The notes beneath the pieces were generated by a model. The model saw only the letters and a list, made by a program, of their open reading frames with translations. It did no database searches and was not told where the DNA came from. Below are positions 17,543-20,281 of a DNA stretch of 35,460 bases, in pieces. The stretch comes from an uncultured Lachnospiraceae bacterium. GTDB lineage: Bacteria; Bacillota; Clostridia; Lachnospirales; Lachnospiraceae. Position 1 is the first letter of the stretch, and the number at the start of each line of letters is the position of its first letter. The DNA lies in contig CAMVRS010000018.1 in NCBI GenBank assembly GCA_947169935.1, positions 1-35,460 of the forward strand, read 5' to 3'. Made by a program: the position numbers and the translations under genes.

Positions 17543-18184
17543 TTATTTCTTTATGGTGATGCTGTTGATGACCGGCTGCTGATCTGCGGGTACCGTACCG
17601 TTATCATCAACAGGTACTACTGTTTCGCAGATAGCATCCACCACTTCCATGCCGCTGACCACTTTTCCGAAGGAGGCATATAAGCCGTCCAGCGACATAT
17701 GGTTACGCTCGCTGTCCTCATGTACGATAAAAAACTGCGAAGAGGCACTGTTGGGATCTTTTCCTCTTGCCATACTGATCACGCCACGGTCGTGTAAAAG
17801 AGGATTGTCGAATCCGTTAGCCTGAAACTCTCCTTTTATAGTATGATCTGATCCTCCGATCCCCATTCCCAGAGGATCGCCGCCCTGTATCATAAAACCG
17901 GTCATTATCCTGTGGAAAGTAAGCCCGTCATAAAAGCCGCTTTCAGCCAGGTTCACAAAATTCTCTACTGTTTCGGGTGCTATATCCGGATAAAGTACCA
18001 GTTCAATGGTTCCGTAATCTTTTACATCAATAGTCGCATAAATCTCGGTGTTTTTTTCAGGCTCCTCCTGGGGCGTAACAGCTGCCTGTTCCCCCTCCCC
18101 GGTGCCGGCGGTTGTCTTTGTTTTGGTTCCGCACGCTGTTAGAAGCAGCATGCAGCTCAGCATGATCAACAGTAACTTTTTCAT
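17543..18184 (-). CDS. Cyclophilin-type peptidyl-prolyl isomerase lipoprotein
   Basis: This 213-residue lipoprotein is predicted to catalyse prolyl cis-trans isomerisation for proteins folding on the outer face of the membrane. A type II signal peptide ends in the lipobox LLTAC (Cys18), followed by a low-complexity Thr/Gly/Glu linker to about residue 48. The cyclophilin core follows, with APETVENFVNLAESGFYDG, the active-site Arg in FHRIMTGFMIQGGDP, the GVISMARG strand and SQFFIVH. GGAGG nine bases before the ATG supports the start. The gene is separated from gdhA by about 170 bases and from the upstream gene by the structured 201-bp element, so it may be transcribed alone. The client is unknown. 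Confidence 0.93.
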   Translation of the reverse strand: MKKLLLIMLSCMLLLTACGTKTKTTAGTGEGEQAAVTPQEEPEKNTEIYATIDVKDYGTIELVLYPDIAPETVENFVNLAESGFYDGLTFHRIMTGFMIQGGDPLGMGIGGSDHTIKGEFQANGFDNPLLHDRGVISMARGKDPNSASSQFFIVHEDSERNHMSLDGLYASFGKVVSGMEVVDAICETVVPVDDNGTVPADQQPVINSITIKK

Positions 18185-18221
18185 AATTGTTTTTCCTCCA
18201 TGTGATTAAATAATATTATGA

Positions 18222-18422
18222 ATAATGCCTGCGGATCGCTTCGTGCTCCGCACTCCCGCGATCCTAACGACCATTCGCAATCCGCTAAAATGCCTGCTCA
18301 CGCAGGCATTTCGCTACTTGCTCATGTTCGTTAGCGTGGCTCAAACCCGCCGACTGCTCCATGCAGATTCATGTAAACATGATCTGCCTGCAGCAATCAT
18401 CGGGTTTGGCCACAGGCATTAT
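18222..18422. repeat. 201-bp structured repeat-like element with terminal inverted repeats
   Basis: The element is bounded by perfect 10-bp inverted repeats ATAATGCCTG (18222-18231) and CAGGCATTAT (18413-18422). Inside are three nearly abutting arms. Arm A (18233-18264) is GGATCGC/GCGATCC enclosing GTGC-TCC-GCAC. Arm B (18264-18334) is CTAACGA/TCGTTAG enclosing the perfect hairpin AAATGCCTGC-TCAC-GCAGGCATTT. Arm C (18336-18413) is GTGGC plus CAAACCCG with CGGGTTTG plus GCCAC (one bulged base), enclosing GCAGAT.CATG-TAAA-CATG.ATCTGC. Together the arms and ends can fold as a four-way cloverleaf. The sequence AATGCCTG occurs four times, twice in each orientation. The right end carries the stop codon of the neighbouring gene. 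It has no coding frame of note, and only one copy is in the window. It may be a dispersed palindromic repeat, MITE or structured RNA. Confidence 0.75.
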
Positions 18423-19144
18423 ACGATCATGTGGTCTTCTGTCAACTTAAACTGTCTTCCGCATTTACATACTATAGTGGTACCTGGCAATACCATCGAT
18501 ACCGCGCCGCAGCCGGGGCACGCAACACTCATGGCTCCGGCCATGCCCATAGGCTGTGCCGCCACAGCCGGTCCTGCCATAGCATCTGCACCTATGGCCG
18601 GTGCGGATGATGAAGGTGTCATCATACTGTTGGAACCGTATCCCGTAAGCGAAACCACCTGGGCATAGGGATCCATCAGCTCTTCCTGTCCCGGAAGGTT
18701 CACCATCTCTGATCTCTTGCCTATAACGTAGATCTCACCTTCATACTCTGCTATCTCTATTGCTCCTCCCGCCTGAAACTTTTTCCAGTCGGTAGAGCCT
18801 GTTTTTACGACTTCCTGACGCAGTCTGCCCTGCCCGTCCTTAAAACGCAGAACCAATGCTATAGCCGGTCTGCCGTTCACCCTTATGCTGTAATCGGGTT
18901 CGTGTGAAATGATCTTTGCGTTATAATGAGCTCCTTCAGCCTTGGCCTTCATTGTCTTGAGCTTCTGCTTTATACCCGAATAAATGATCCCCAGACCGAT
19001 AAGTCCGAAGATGCCGCCTACCAGAATGCCGATCCAGGCATTCTCCACCACCGTTCCTTCAGGTTTGATGATGCAGATCGCCATTACAAAGAAGCCTACG
19101 CCGCCAAAACACAATCCGAAAAGAATCTCAAATAAGCCGTTCAT
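18419..19144 (-). CDS. Small membrane protein with C-terminal zinc-ribbon-like motif
   Basis: This 241-residue protein has no assigned function. Two transmembrane helices (about residues 5-25 and 38-60) lead to a cytoplasmic beta-rich region (about 70-150) resembling the DUF3592 type, with ALVLRFKDGQGR and IYVIGKRSEM. A Ser/Ala/Gly/Met-rich linker (about 170-205) follows. The tail has a CPGCG...CKCG cluster, probably one zinc ribbon. The start has a strong AAGGGGG site. It follows the neighbouring membrane protein by 30 bases in the same direction. The TAA stop (18419-18421) lies inside the terminal repeat of the structured element, so that element supplies or borders the end of the gene. Confidence 0.75.
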   Translation of the reverse strand: MNGLFEILFGLCFGGVGFFVMAICIIKPEGTVVENAWIGILVGGIFGLIGLGIIYSGIKQKLKTMKAKAEGAHYNAKIISHEPDYSIRVNGRPAIALVLRFKDGQGRLRQEVVKTGSTDWKKFQAGGAIEIAEYEGEIYVIGKRSEMVNLPGQEELMDPYAQVVSLTGYGSNSMMTPSSSAPAIGADAMAGPAVAAQPMGMAGAMSVACPGCGAVSMVLPGTTIVCKCGRQFKLTEDHMIV

Positions 19145-19972: not shown

Positions 19973-20218
19973 ATGGACGAGCTGACTTTGCAGATATCCG
20001 GAATAAGCGTTAAAGACGGCAAAAAGCAGGCCTGCGTCCGTTTTACCGATAATGAGCGCTATGCGGAAGGCACTATCCCTGACTGTGTCATTATCCGGTC
20101 TGAAGGCTTCACAAACGAAGAAAAAGCCCAATTGGAAGATTACCTGAAAGCCAATCTGGGTGAATTAAAAAAAACGTCAGCGAAGATAAATCCGCTTAAC
20201 GCTATCATGGGGATATAG
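19973..20218 (+). CDS. Conserved-looking 81-residue hypothetical protein ending inside a tRNA gene
   Basis: This is a short soluble protein of 81 residues that I do not recognise. It reads MDELTLQISGISVKDGKKQA at the N terminus, then an alternating beta-type pattern. A helical FTNEEKAQLEDYLKANLGEL segment follows near the C terminus. I chose the ATG at 19973 because GGGAG lies six bases upstream and a promoter with a 75-base leader precedes it. The frame from 19880 would start upstream of the predicted transcription start. Its last codons (ATG GGG ATA TAG) run into tRNA-Ala: the final ten bases, including the whole stop codon at 20216-20218, belong to the tRNA. RNase P processing of a shared transcript would remove the stop codon. 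Confidence 0.7.
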   Translation: MDELTLQISGISVKDGKKQACVRFTDNERYAEGTIPDCVIIRSEGFTNEEKAQLEDYLKANLGELKKTSAKINPLNAIMGI

Positions 20219-20281
20219 CTCAGCTGGGAGAGCGATGCGTTCGCAACGCATAGGTCAGGGGTTCGAATCCCCCTATCTCCA
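20209..20281 (+). tRNA. tRNA-Ala, anticodon CGC
   Basis: The cloverleaf is complete. The acceptor is GGGGATA/TATCTCC with the G3-T70 wobble pair that identifies alanine tRNAs. The D arm is GCTC/GAGC with loop AGCTGGGA. The anticodon arm is ATGCG/CGCAT with loop TTCGCAA (anticodon CGC, reading GCG). The variable loop is AGGTC, and the T loop is TTCGAAT. The discriminator is A, and CCA is not encoded. The outermost T-stem pair is an A-C mismatch (20257/20273); all other stems are sound. The 5' ten bases overlap the end of the upstream reading frame. Confidence 0.96.

Follow-up and report, generated by a model that had tools for sequence, protein, structure and literature searches.

The stretch of DNA analysed here, called the window, is a 35,460-nt contig of an uncultured Lachnospiraceae bacterium (assembly GCA_947169935.1, contig CAMVRS010000018.1, positions 1 to 35,460). 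Between a gene for a 241-aa protein and a gene for a cyclophilin-type isomerase it carries a 201-bp element rich in inverted repeats, which is a copy of Rfam family RF01699, the Clostridiales-1 RNA. The covariance-model search (cmscan) gave a full-length match of 95.3 bits on the minus strand (18223–18414, model positions 1–166; gathering cut-off 48). The Rfam entry is filed as a small RNA (sRNA) of unknown function. The table of Weinberg et al. 2010 lists Clostridiales-1 as probably an RNA, probably not cis-regulatory and probably not a riboswitch, from Clostridiales and the human gut (PMC2864571). The element in the window belongs to the same family by the covariance model and comes from the same taxa. 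The features of the locus, with four stems labelled P1 to P4, are the following.

18222..18422, minus strand: whole element, RF01699 copy (cmscan and folding); its sense is that of both flanking genes
18413..18422, minus strand: 5' strand of the closing stem P1, minus-strand ATAATGCCTG, holding the stop codon TAA (18421–18419) of the upstream gene (sequence)
18222..18231, minus strand: 3' strand of P1, minus-strand CAGGCATTAT, pairing with the stop-codon region (sequence, folding)
18336..18412, minus strand: P2 arm, a long hairpin (folding, RF01699 alignment)
18265..18333, minus strand: P3 arm (85-copy alignment A1, folding)
18233..18264, minus strand: P4 arm, a hairpin (folding, alignment)
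18419..19144, minus strand: upstream gene, 241 aa, ending ...DHMIV* (open reading frame list; stop codon in P1)
17543..18184, minus strand: downstream gene, 213 aa, cyclophilin-type peptidyl-prolyl isomerase (PF00160, 7.6e-42)

The ends of the element are perfect 10-bp inverted repeats (ATAATGCCTG at 18222–18231 and CAGGCATTAT at 18413–18422, as read in the sequence), and the octamer AATGCCTG occurs twice directly and twice inverted. The minimum free energy of 18215–18430 is −99.3 kcal/mol on the plus strand and −116.9 kcal/mol on the minus strand, with z-scores of −10.7 and −12.2, and none of 200 dinucleotide shuffles of either strand folds as well. The structured strand is the minus strand. 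The P3 arm carries the two most conserved blocks of the family (minus-strand CATGAGCAAGTAGC, 18326–18313, and GCGGATTGCGAATG, 18285–18272), and the apex of P4 reads GCGGAGC here and GCGAAGC in many other copies. A first-pass annotation, made from the sequence alone, had already described the terminal repeats, three arms and a sequence recurring four times; all are borne out, with the arms predicted at the positions it gave. It had also placed the element in an intergenic gap, and this is right only in part, since the stop codon of the upstream gene falls inside the terminal stem.

Copies of RF01699 are dispersed across related genomes. Three lie in the window's own genome, and 171 matches (E ≤ 0.001) were found in 22 of 60 related genomes, with the highest counts in G029 (30), G006 (22) and G056 (17). 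Within the window's genus, 20 of 35 genomes carry the RNA. A class-wide draw of 118 genomes gave matches in four, all of the window's family, which adds three further genera of that family; outside the family, matches came from two genomes of the 60-genome set (G051 and G056) and from none of the 118. Two copies in G028 (L006 and L026) are 99% identical at different places, and their flanks do not align except for a common CCGGTATATG 3–6 nt upstream. Other pairs, within and between species, are 92–96% identical at different places. We consider the mobility of the family well supported; no title or abstract returned by literature searches for the family dealt with it. From the 171 matches, 120 of the 121 listed with at least 49.7 bits were analysed further (G028:C46:117772 was excluded), leaving aside weaker matches such as L024 and G016:C1:31278. 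The 120 include overlapping or tandem units that belong to one array (e.g., in L016, L017, L025, L032 and L060) and are hence not independent.

The unit itself varies. Genome G056 holds a five-copy head-to-tail array with a 149-bp unit and 93% matches (L102, G056:C1:1030700-1034500, 1503–2242); the unit is a variant of Clostridiales-1, the genome belongs to another family, and the TGAT..GGGTCAA ends are lacking. Four copies in G029 (L094, L097, L108 and L128) have an extra internal block with a palindrome of its own (GTGCCGTGTGCCGG..CCGGCACAC-like), so that they look as though another element had landed inside them. Directly downstream of the element at the FliD gene stand partial copies of its 3' half (L021, L049), which suggests unit growth and loss through tandem duplication.

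The sequence of the copies points to selection on an RNA. In an alignment of 85 of the 120 copies (A1; chosen by score, length and redundancy, with the window row lengthened to 199 nt), 32 of the 33 pairs of the predicted consensus show two-sided compensatory change, and the blocks CATGAGCAAGTAGC and GCGGATTGCGAATG are strongly conserved. The sense strand folds more stably than the antisense strand in 112 of the 120 copies. Single mismatches on the sense strand, counted after folding without G.U pairs, are G.T in 69 cases and A.C in 38 (p = 0.0035, relatedness ignored), an excess expected of an RNA read in this sense. At sites shared between species, the identity of the element averages 0.82 vs 0.67 for the downstream 60 nt and is the higher in 34 of 36 between-species comparisons, which cover 11 sites and are not independent. 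In these comparisons 1803 stem pairs were the same; 69 were kept after a one-sided and 120 after a two-sided change, and 156 were broken.

The element is placed preferentially at stop codons. With neighbouring genes taken from mechanical open reading frame calls, the upstream neighbour is co-oriented in 82 of the 120 matches and opposed in 35; the downstream neighbour is co-oriented in 85 and opposed in 23 of the 108 copies for which one was called. In 47 of the 82 copies, the co-oriented upstream stop codon is found within −8 to +5 nt of where the element starts. Where a downstream gene was also called, 40 of 69 stops fall in this range vs 9.7 expected under uniform placement. In 49 of the 82 the stop lies within −17 to +5 nt, close to the range (about 15 nt) reported for an effect of the repetitive extragenic palindromic (REP) sequences discussed below. 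The same contact occurs at none of the 85 co-oriented downstream starts and at one of the 35 opposed upstream genes. The stop-abutting copies stand at 40 distinct gene ends. As a replicate, we used 15 of the 16 matches listed for the three other genera of the window's family: the upstream gene is co-oriented in 13 of 15, and 11 of these 13 stops fall within −8 to +5 nt.

Truncation of the upstream genes by insertion was considered and rejected for several full-length proteins, namely ArgS, thiolase, TldD/PmbA, an aminotransferase and GlnA, whose domains reach to within three residues of the stop; the DALR_1 domain of ArgS is complete (117/117) and ends at residue 529 of 529. One copy (L047), where the stop is the element's own TGA behind a target duplication, may be a case of truncation. 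In the window, the element begins at the TAA of the 241-aa gene, and the start codon of the isomerase gene is 37 nt beyond it. The 241-aa protein has no Pfam match at 1e-5 and is matched in five of 40 genomes, its own included. Its homologues without the element end at the same residue (...DHMIV* in G006, ...DNMIV* in G012), which rejects truncation here as well. No strain-level empty site for the window copy was found among these five genomes, because homologues are few and theirs have other downstream genes. Elsewhere in the window, a tRNA gene lies at 20209–20281 (plus strand, 64 bits).

The stop codon often takes part in the closing stem. Outward pairs in the flanks beyond the model average 1.40 vs 0.88 by chance (standard deviation 0.11; maximum of 2,000 shuffles 1.34); this was measured on 89 of 112 copies with a score of at least 60 bits and three outer pairs formed, which were thus selected for P1. 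When 59 stop-abutting copies were folded with 20-nt flanks, all three stop nucleotides paired with the 3' closing strand in 27; with the 3' strands swapped between copies, six trials gave 7–15. At L264 the stem extends across the gene's final codons (flanks ATGTAATTCACC..GGTGAATTACAT), and at L041 the complementary flanks are AGGATA..TATCCT. Because the 5' strand of P1 is coding and constrained, any tailoring should have fallen on the 3' strand; either the element inserted into a palindrome that was already there, or selection adjusted the strand afterwards. A more far-reaching proposal, which we make tentatively and regard as rather doubtful, is that of a mobile clamp on stop codons: IS1182-type insertion directed by structure would place the element in stem-loops at gene ends, the closing stem would be tailored to the last codons and the stop of the host gene, and a terminating ribosome would have to melt P1, so that the RNA would register termination at a wide range of unrelated genes. 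After ArgS in G028 (L219), a different strong hairpin of −32 kcal/mol also has the stop codon in its stem (TGACC..GGTCA); in the window's genus, hairpins anchored on stops may outnumber RF01699.

Part of the family has transposon ends. Some copies start with TGATGYYAGGGTCAAAAG, continue with the RNA and a short A-rich tail, and finish with TTGACCYTAAYATCA; the consensus of the ends was drawn by eye from those copies. The right end is kept with at most two mismatches in 10 of the 120 matches, and eight of these ten have a perfect 5-bp target-site duplication (TSD): TGTCA, TATAA, TTATA, TAATA (twice), TAATC, TAGAA and TAATG. Among 15 rows with at most four end mismatches, eight agree at four or more of the five TSD bases (shuffles: mean 2.3, maximum 7 in 10,000). 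The copies taken to have moved recently have TG..CA ends of 15–18 nt and a 5-bp duplication. The window copy (L003) is without the right end and without a TSD, and is not among the matches that keep that end. Across the 60 genomes, the end motif TGATRNNARGGTCAA was matched 77 times vs 16 for the reversed pattern, and inside the genus 66 vs 6. The same ends also bound short elements of 58, 70 and 123 bp. The TSD-bearing copies are miniature inverted-repeat transposable elements (MITEs), because in two related species the sequence of an IS1182-like transposase is bordered by ends resembling theirs.

These two species point to the likely mover. In G004, an intact insertion sequence (IS) of 1855 bp (L196:2076-3930) has the ends TGATATTGGGGTCAAAAG / TGATGTTGGGGTCTAAAC and encodes a 532-aa protein with DUF772 (PF05598, 6e-10) and DDE_Tnp_1_6 (PF13751, 3.8e-11) domains, both above the gathering cut-offs; among four NCBIfam models listed, IS1182 (NF033551) matches it best. 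Its left end agrees with the MITE left end at 14 of 18 bases and is similar, not identical. In G009, repeated ends occur at contig breaks (TGATGTTGGGGTCAAATG, or AGATG..., and TGATATCAAGGTCGATTG), the IS left end is identical to the right end of the G028 MITE at 17 of 18 bases, and a C-terminal piece of a transposase shares 59% identity with the G004 protein across 56 aa. Neither genome has an RF01699 match itself. Judging from these sequences, an IS1182-like DDE transposase acting in trans is the likely mover; since only six of the 60 genomes match the transposase, this rests on similar ends and not on co-occurrence. REPs are associated with REP-associated tyrosine transposases (RAYTs). For the TSD-bearing subset, DDE-type ends with TSDs argue against such a partner, although no search for RAYTs was made.

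Other partners were tried. For IS21, the 60 genomes were searched with PF01695, and L140–L145 (five of the six strong IstB matches and one fragment) were scanned for ends; no end pair was found around the genes, only isolated matches with two mismatches in L142 and L144. A terminal inverted repeat at a contig break (L119, G029:C84:1-213) had the look of the partner, but it continues directly into sequence resembling an IS110-type 3' region. Among the matches listed, which include a minority of those in G000, no facing end pairs 0.8–4 kb apart were seen by eye in ten genomes. The first-pass annotation had left the choice between a dispersed palindromic repeat or MITE moved in trans by a RAYT or a transposase and a structured RNA, had described similar sequence as widespread in Lachnospiraceae, and had held that a single copy with no covarying stems would argue against either. 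Both descriptions apply to the family at once (dispersal and TSDs, RF01699 match and covariation), and the three copies in the window's genome and the compensated pairs are the opposite of that refuting case; its statement on distribution agrees broadly with what was found, and of the two movers the transposase is favoured by the shared ends.

We compared orthologous gene ends, of which 40 were fetched for six genes from matches in 20 chosen genomes. The orthologous proteins end within about two residues of the element-bearing ones. For thiolase, the element is present in G024; right after the stop, G012 (94% identical at the C-terminus), G029, G019 and G006 have a hairpin of their own, and G018 has none. 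The FliD end has the element in G019, G024 and G012 and a mini-hairpin with the same stem in G025 (TGTAATACCA..TGGTATTACA). For the aminotransferase, the element is present in G034 and G008; in the close relatives G002 and G026 it is absent, and no strong hairpin stands at the stop codon. Replacement of a stem-loop by the element is suggested by the thiolase site, the only one it fits, and is unproven. IS1272 of the IS1182 family is reported to replace stem-loops, some of them near gene 3' ends, leaving no TSD (PMC5678879). The system described here is alike in that the G004 transposase belongs to the IS1182 family by its best profile match and in that 110 of the 120 matches have no TSD; it differs in the subset with clear 5-bp TSDs and in that replacement is suggested at one site.

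Taken together, we favour, with a probability of about 0.6, a mobile RNA module of 3' untranslated regions (UTRs): a non-autonomous repeat, moved by an IS1182-like transposase, whose body encodes the conserved four-helix RNA and which probably acts at stop codons. From their anatomy, the recently moved copies would have been mobilised in trans by a DDE transposase of an IS whose ends resemble theirs. Of the copies that follow a co-oriented gene, about half sit exactly at the stop codon of that gene and, if co-transcribed, would open its 3' UTR or make up the intercistronic RNA. P1 would close over the stop-codon region, with P2–P4 as a stable block. This putative barrier, REP-like in its action, may slow the terminating ribosome, shield the upstream mRNA from 3' exonucleases, or both, and would tune both the gene in front of it and that gene's neighbour in the operon. 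The fold would then be kept by selection once the transposon ends have decayed.

Several observations weigh against this reading. On the side of mobility, the 110 matches without a right end, the window's included, show no excess of 5-bp duplications (none within 8 nt; nine within 60 nt vs 9.1 in shuffles), and beyond the genus the end motif does not exceed its reversed control in frequency (11 vs 10), though the RNA is present in G051 and G056. The G004 transposase scores 115.8 bits against NF033551, below the curated cut-off of 270, and its IS has no perfect 5-bp TSD. The six genomes that match the transposase (E ≤ 0.001) do not include the window's, many of the 60 being drafts. As to placement, 35 of the 82 co-oriented copies lie outside −8 to +5 nt and a further 35 copies have an opposed upstream gene; adjacency to stops could also be due in part to a TA-rich target (TSDs such as TAATA). 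For the RNA, P1 is absent from the RNAalifold consensus, no base of the stop codon is paired in 15 of the 59 folded copies, and broken pairs stand at 156 vs 189 kept after change. Related copies are not independent in the covariation and mismatch counts. The stability gap between sense and antisense is mostly compositional (shuffles of 60 copies explain −5.8 of −9.3 kcal/mol), and therefore the G.T/A.C test was added.

Other explanations account for part of these data. A purely selfish MITE without host function would accumulate at stop codons because, among TA-rich sites, insertion there does least harm to a dense genome, and covariation of the stems would arise by processes at the DNA level, such as hairpin template switching or cruciform recognition. 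The terminal repeats and TSDs, the TA-rich character of the latter (TAATA, TAATC, TTATA), the patchy occurrence in 22 of 60 genomes, the short elements with the same ends and the tandem array are all consistent with it. We nevertheless consider it unlikely: it is at odds with the conserved blocks, the mismatch asymmetry, the strand bias relative to genes, the excess of element identity over the neighbouring 60 nt, and stop pairing beyond the swapped controls. An intrinsic terminator or attenuator replacing the native hairpin between genes would have strong hairpins, as the element does, and at thiolase the place of the element is taken, in four of the five orthologues fetched, by a short hairpin behind the stop. 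The element is not followed by a consistent T-run at its 3' end, and the gene after it is co-oriented in 85 of 108 copies, which is what read-through operons would show; this function appears very unlikely.

It is possible, if doubtful, that a structured RNA resident in Lachnospiraceae, as a 3'-UTR element or an sRNA, was captured by one MITE lineage; most copies would then stem from vertical descent, tandem duplication and ectopic recombination, and the transposon ends would be incidental. A right end recognisable in only 10 of 120 matches would fit, as would sites common to several species and the RNAs of G051 and G056, which lie outside the family and have other terminal sequences, with the array in G056. 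Against this, the left end TGATGYYAGGGTCAAAAG belongs to P1–P2 of the RNA, so that fold and transposon end are not cleanly separable, and the stop-abutting copies stand at 40 distinct gene ends.

The favoured mobile 3'-UTR module resembles known repeats in part. Like the REPs of E. coli, it consists of dispersed palindromic repeats after genes. Such REPs are reported to stall ribosomes when within 15 nt of a stop codon, and the half-life of mRNAs to become shorter once they are removed from 3' UTRs (PMC12306157). Their size is given as 20–40 bp (PMC3733652); the element, in contrast, is a four-helix RNA of about 150–200 nt that has conserved blocks of sequence and bears DDE-type ends and TSDs. 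The bcr1–bcr3 repeats of the Bacillus cereus group are likewise MITE-like; they are described as intergenic and often transcribed in UTRs or within operons (PMC3446304). They belong to another taxon, and stop-codon anchoring is not among the properties given for them in the text available from that source.

An orphan Rfam family filed as an sRNA is thus recast as an RNA module carried at least partly by a transposon, and its likely mover is named. For annotation, an RF01699 match need not be an independent sRNA gene. If the stop-codon clamp were true, one mobile RNA would sit at the same spot on some 40 unrelated genes, including argS, glnA and thiolase, and would offer a natural test of stop-codon structure in termination and mRNA decay, and of transposons spreading regulatory 3' UTRs in bacteria.
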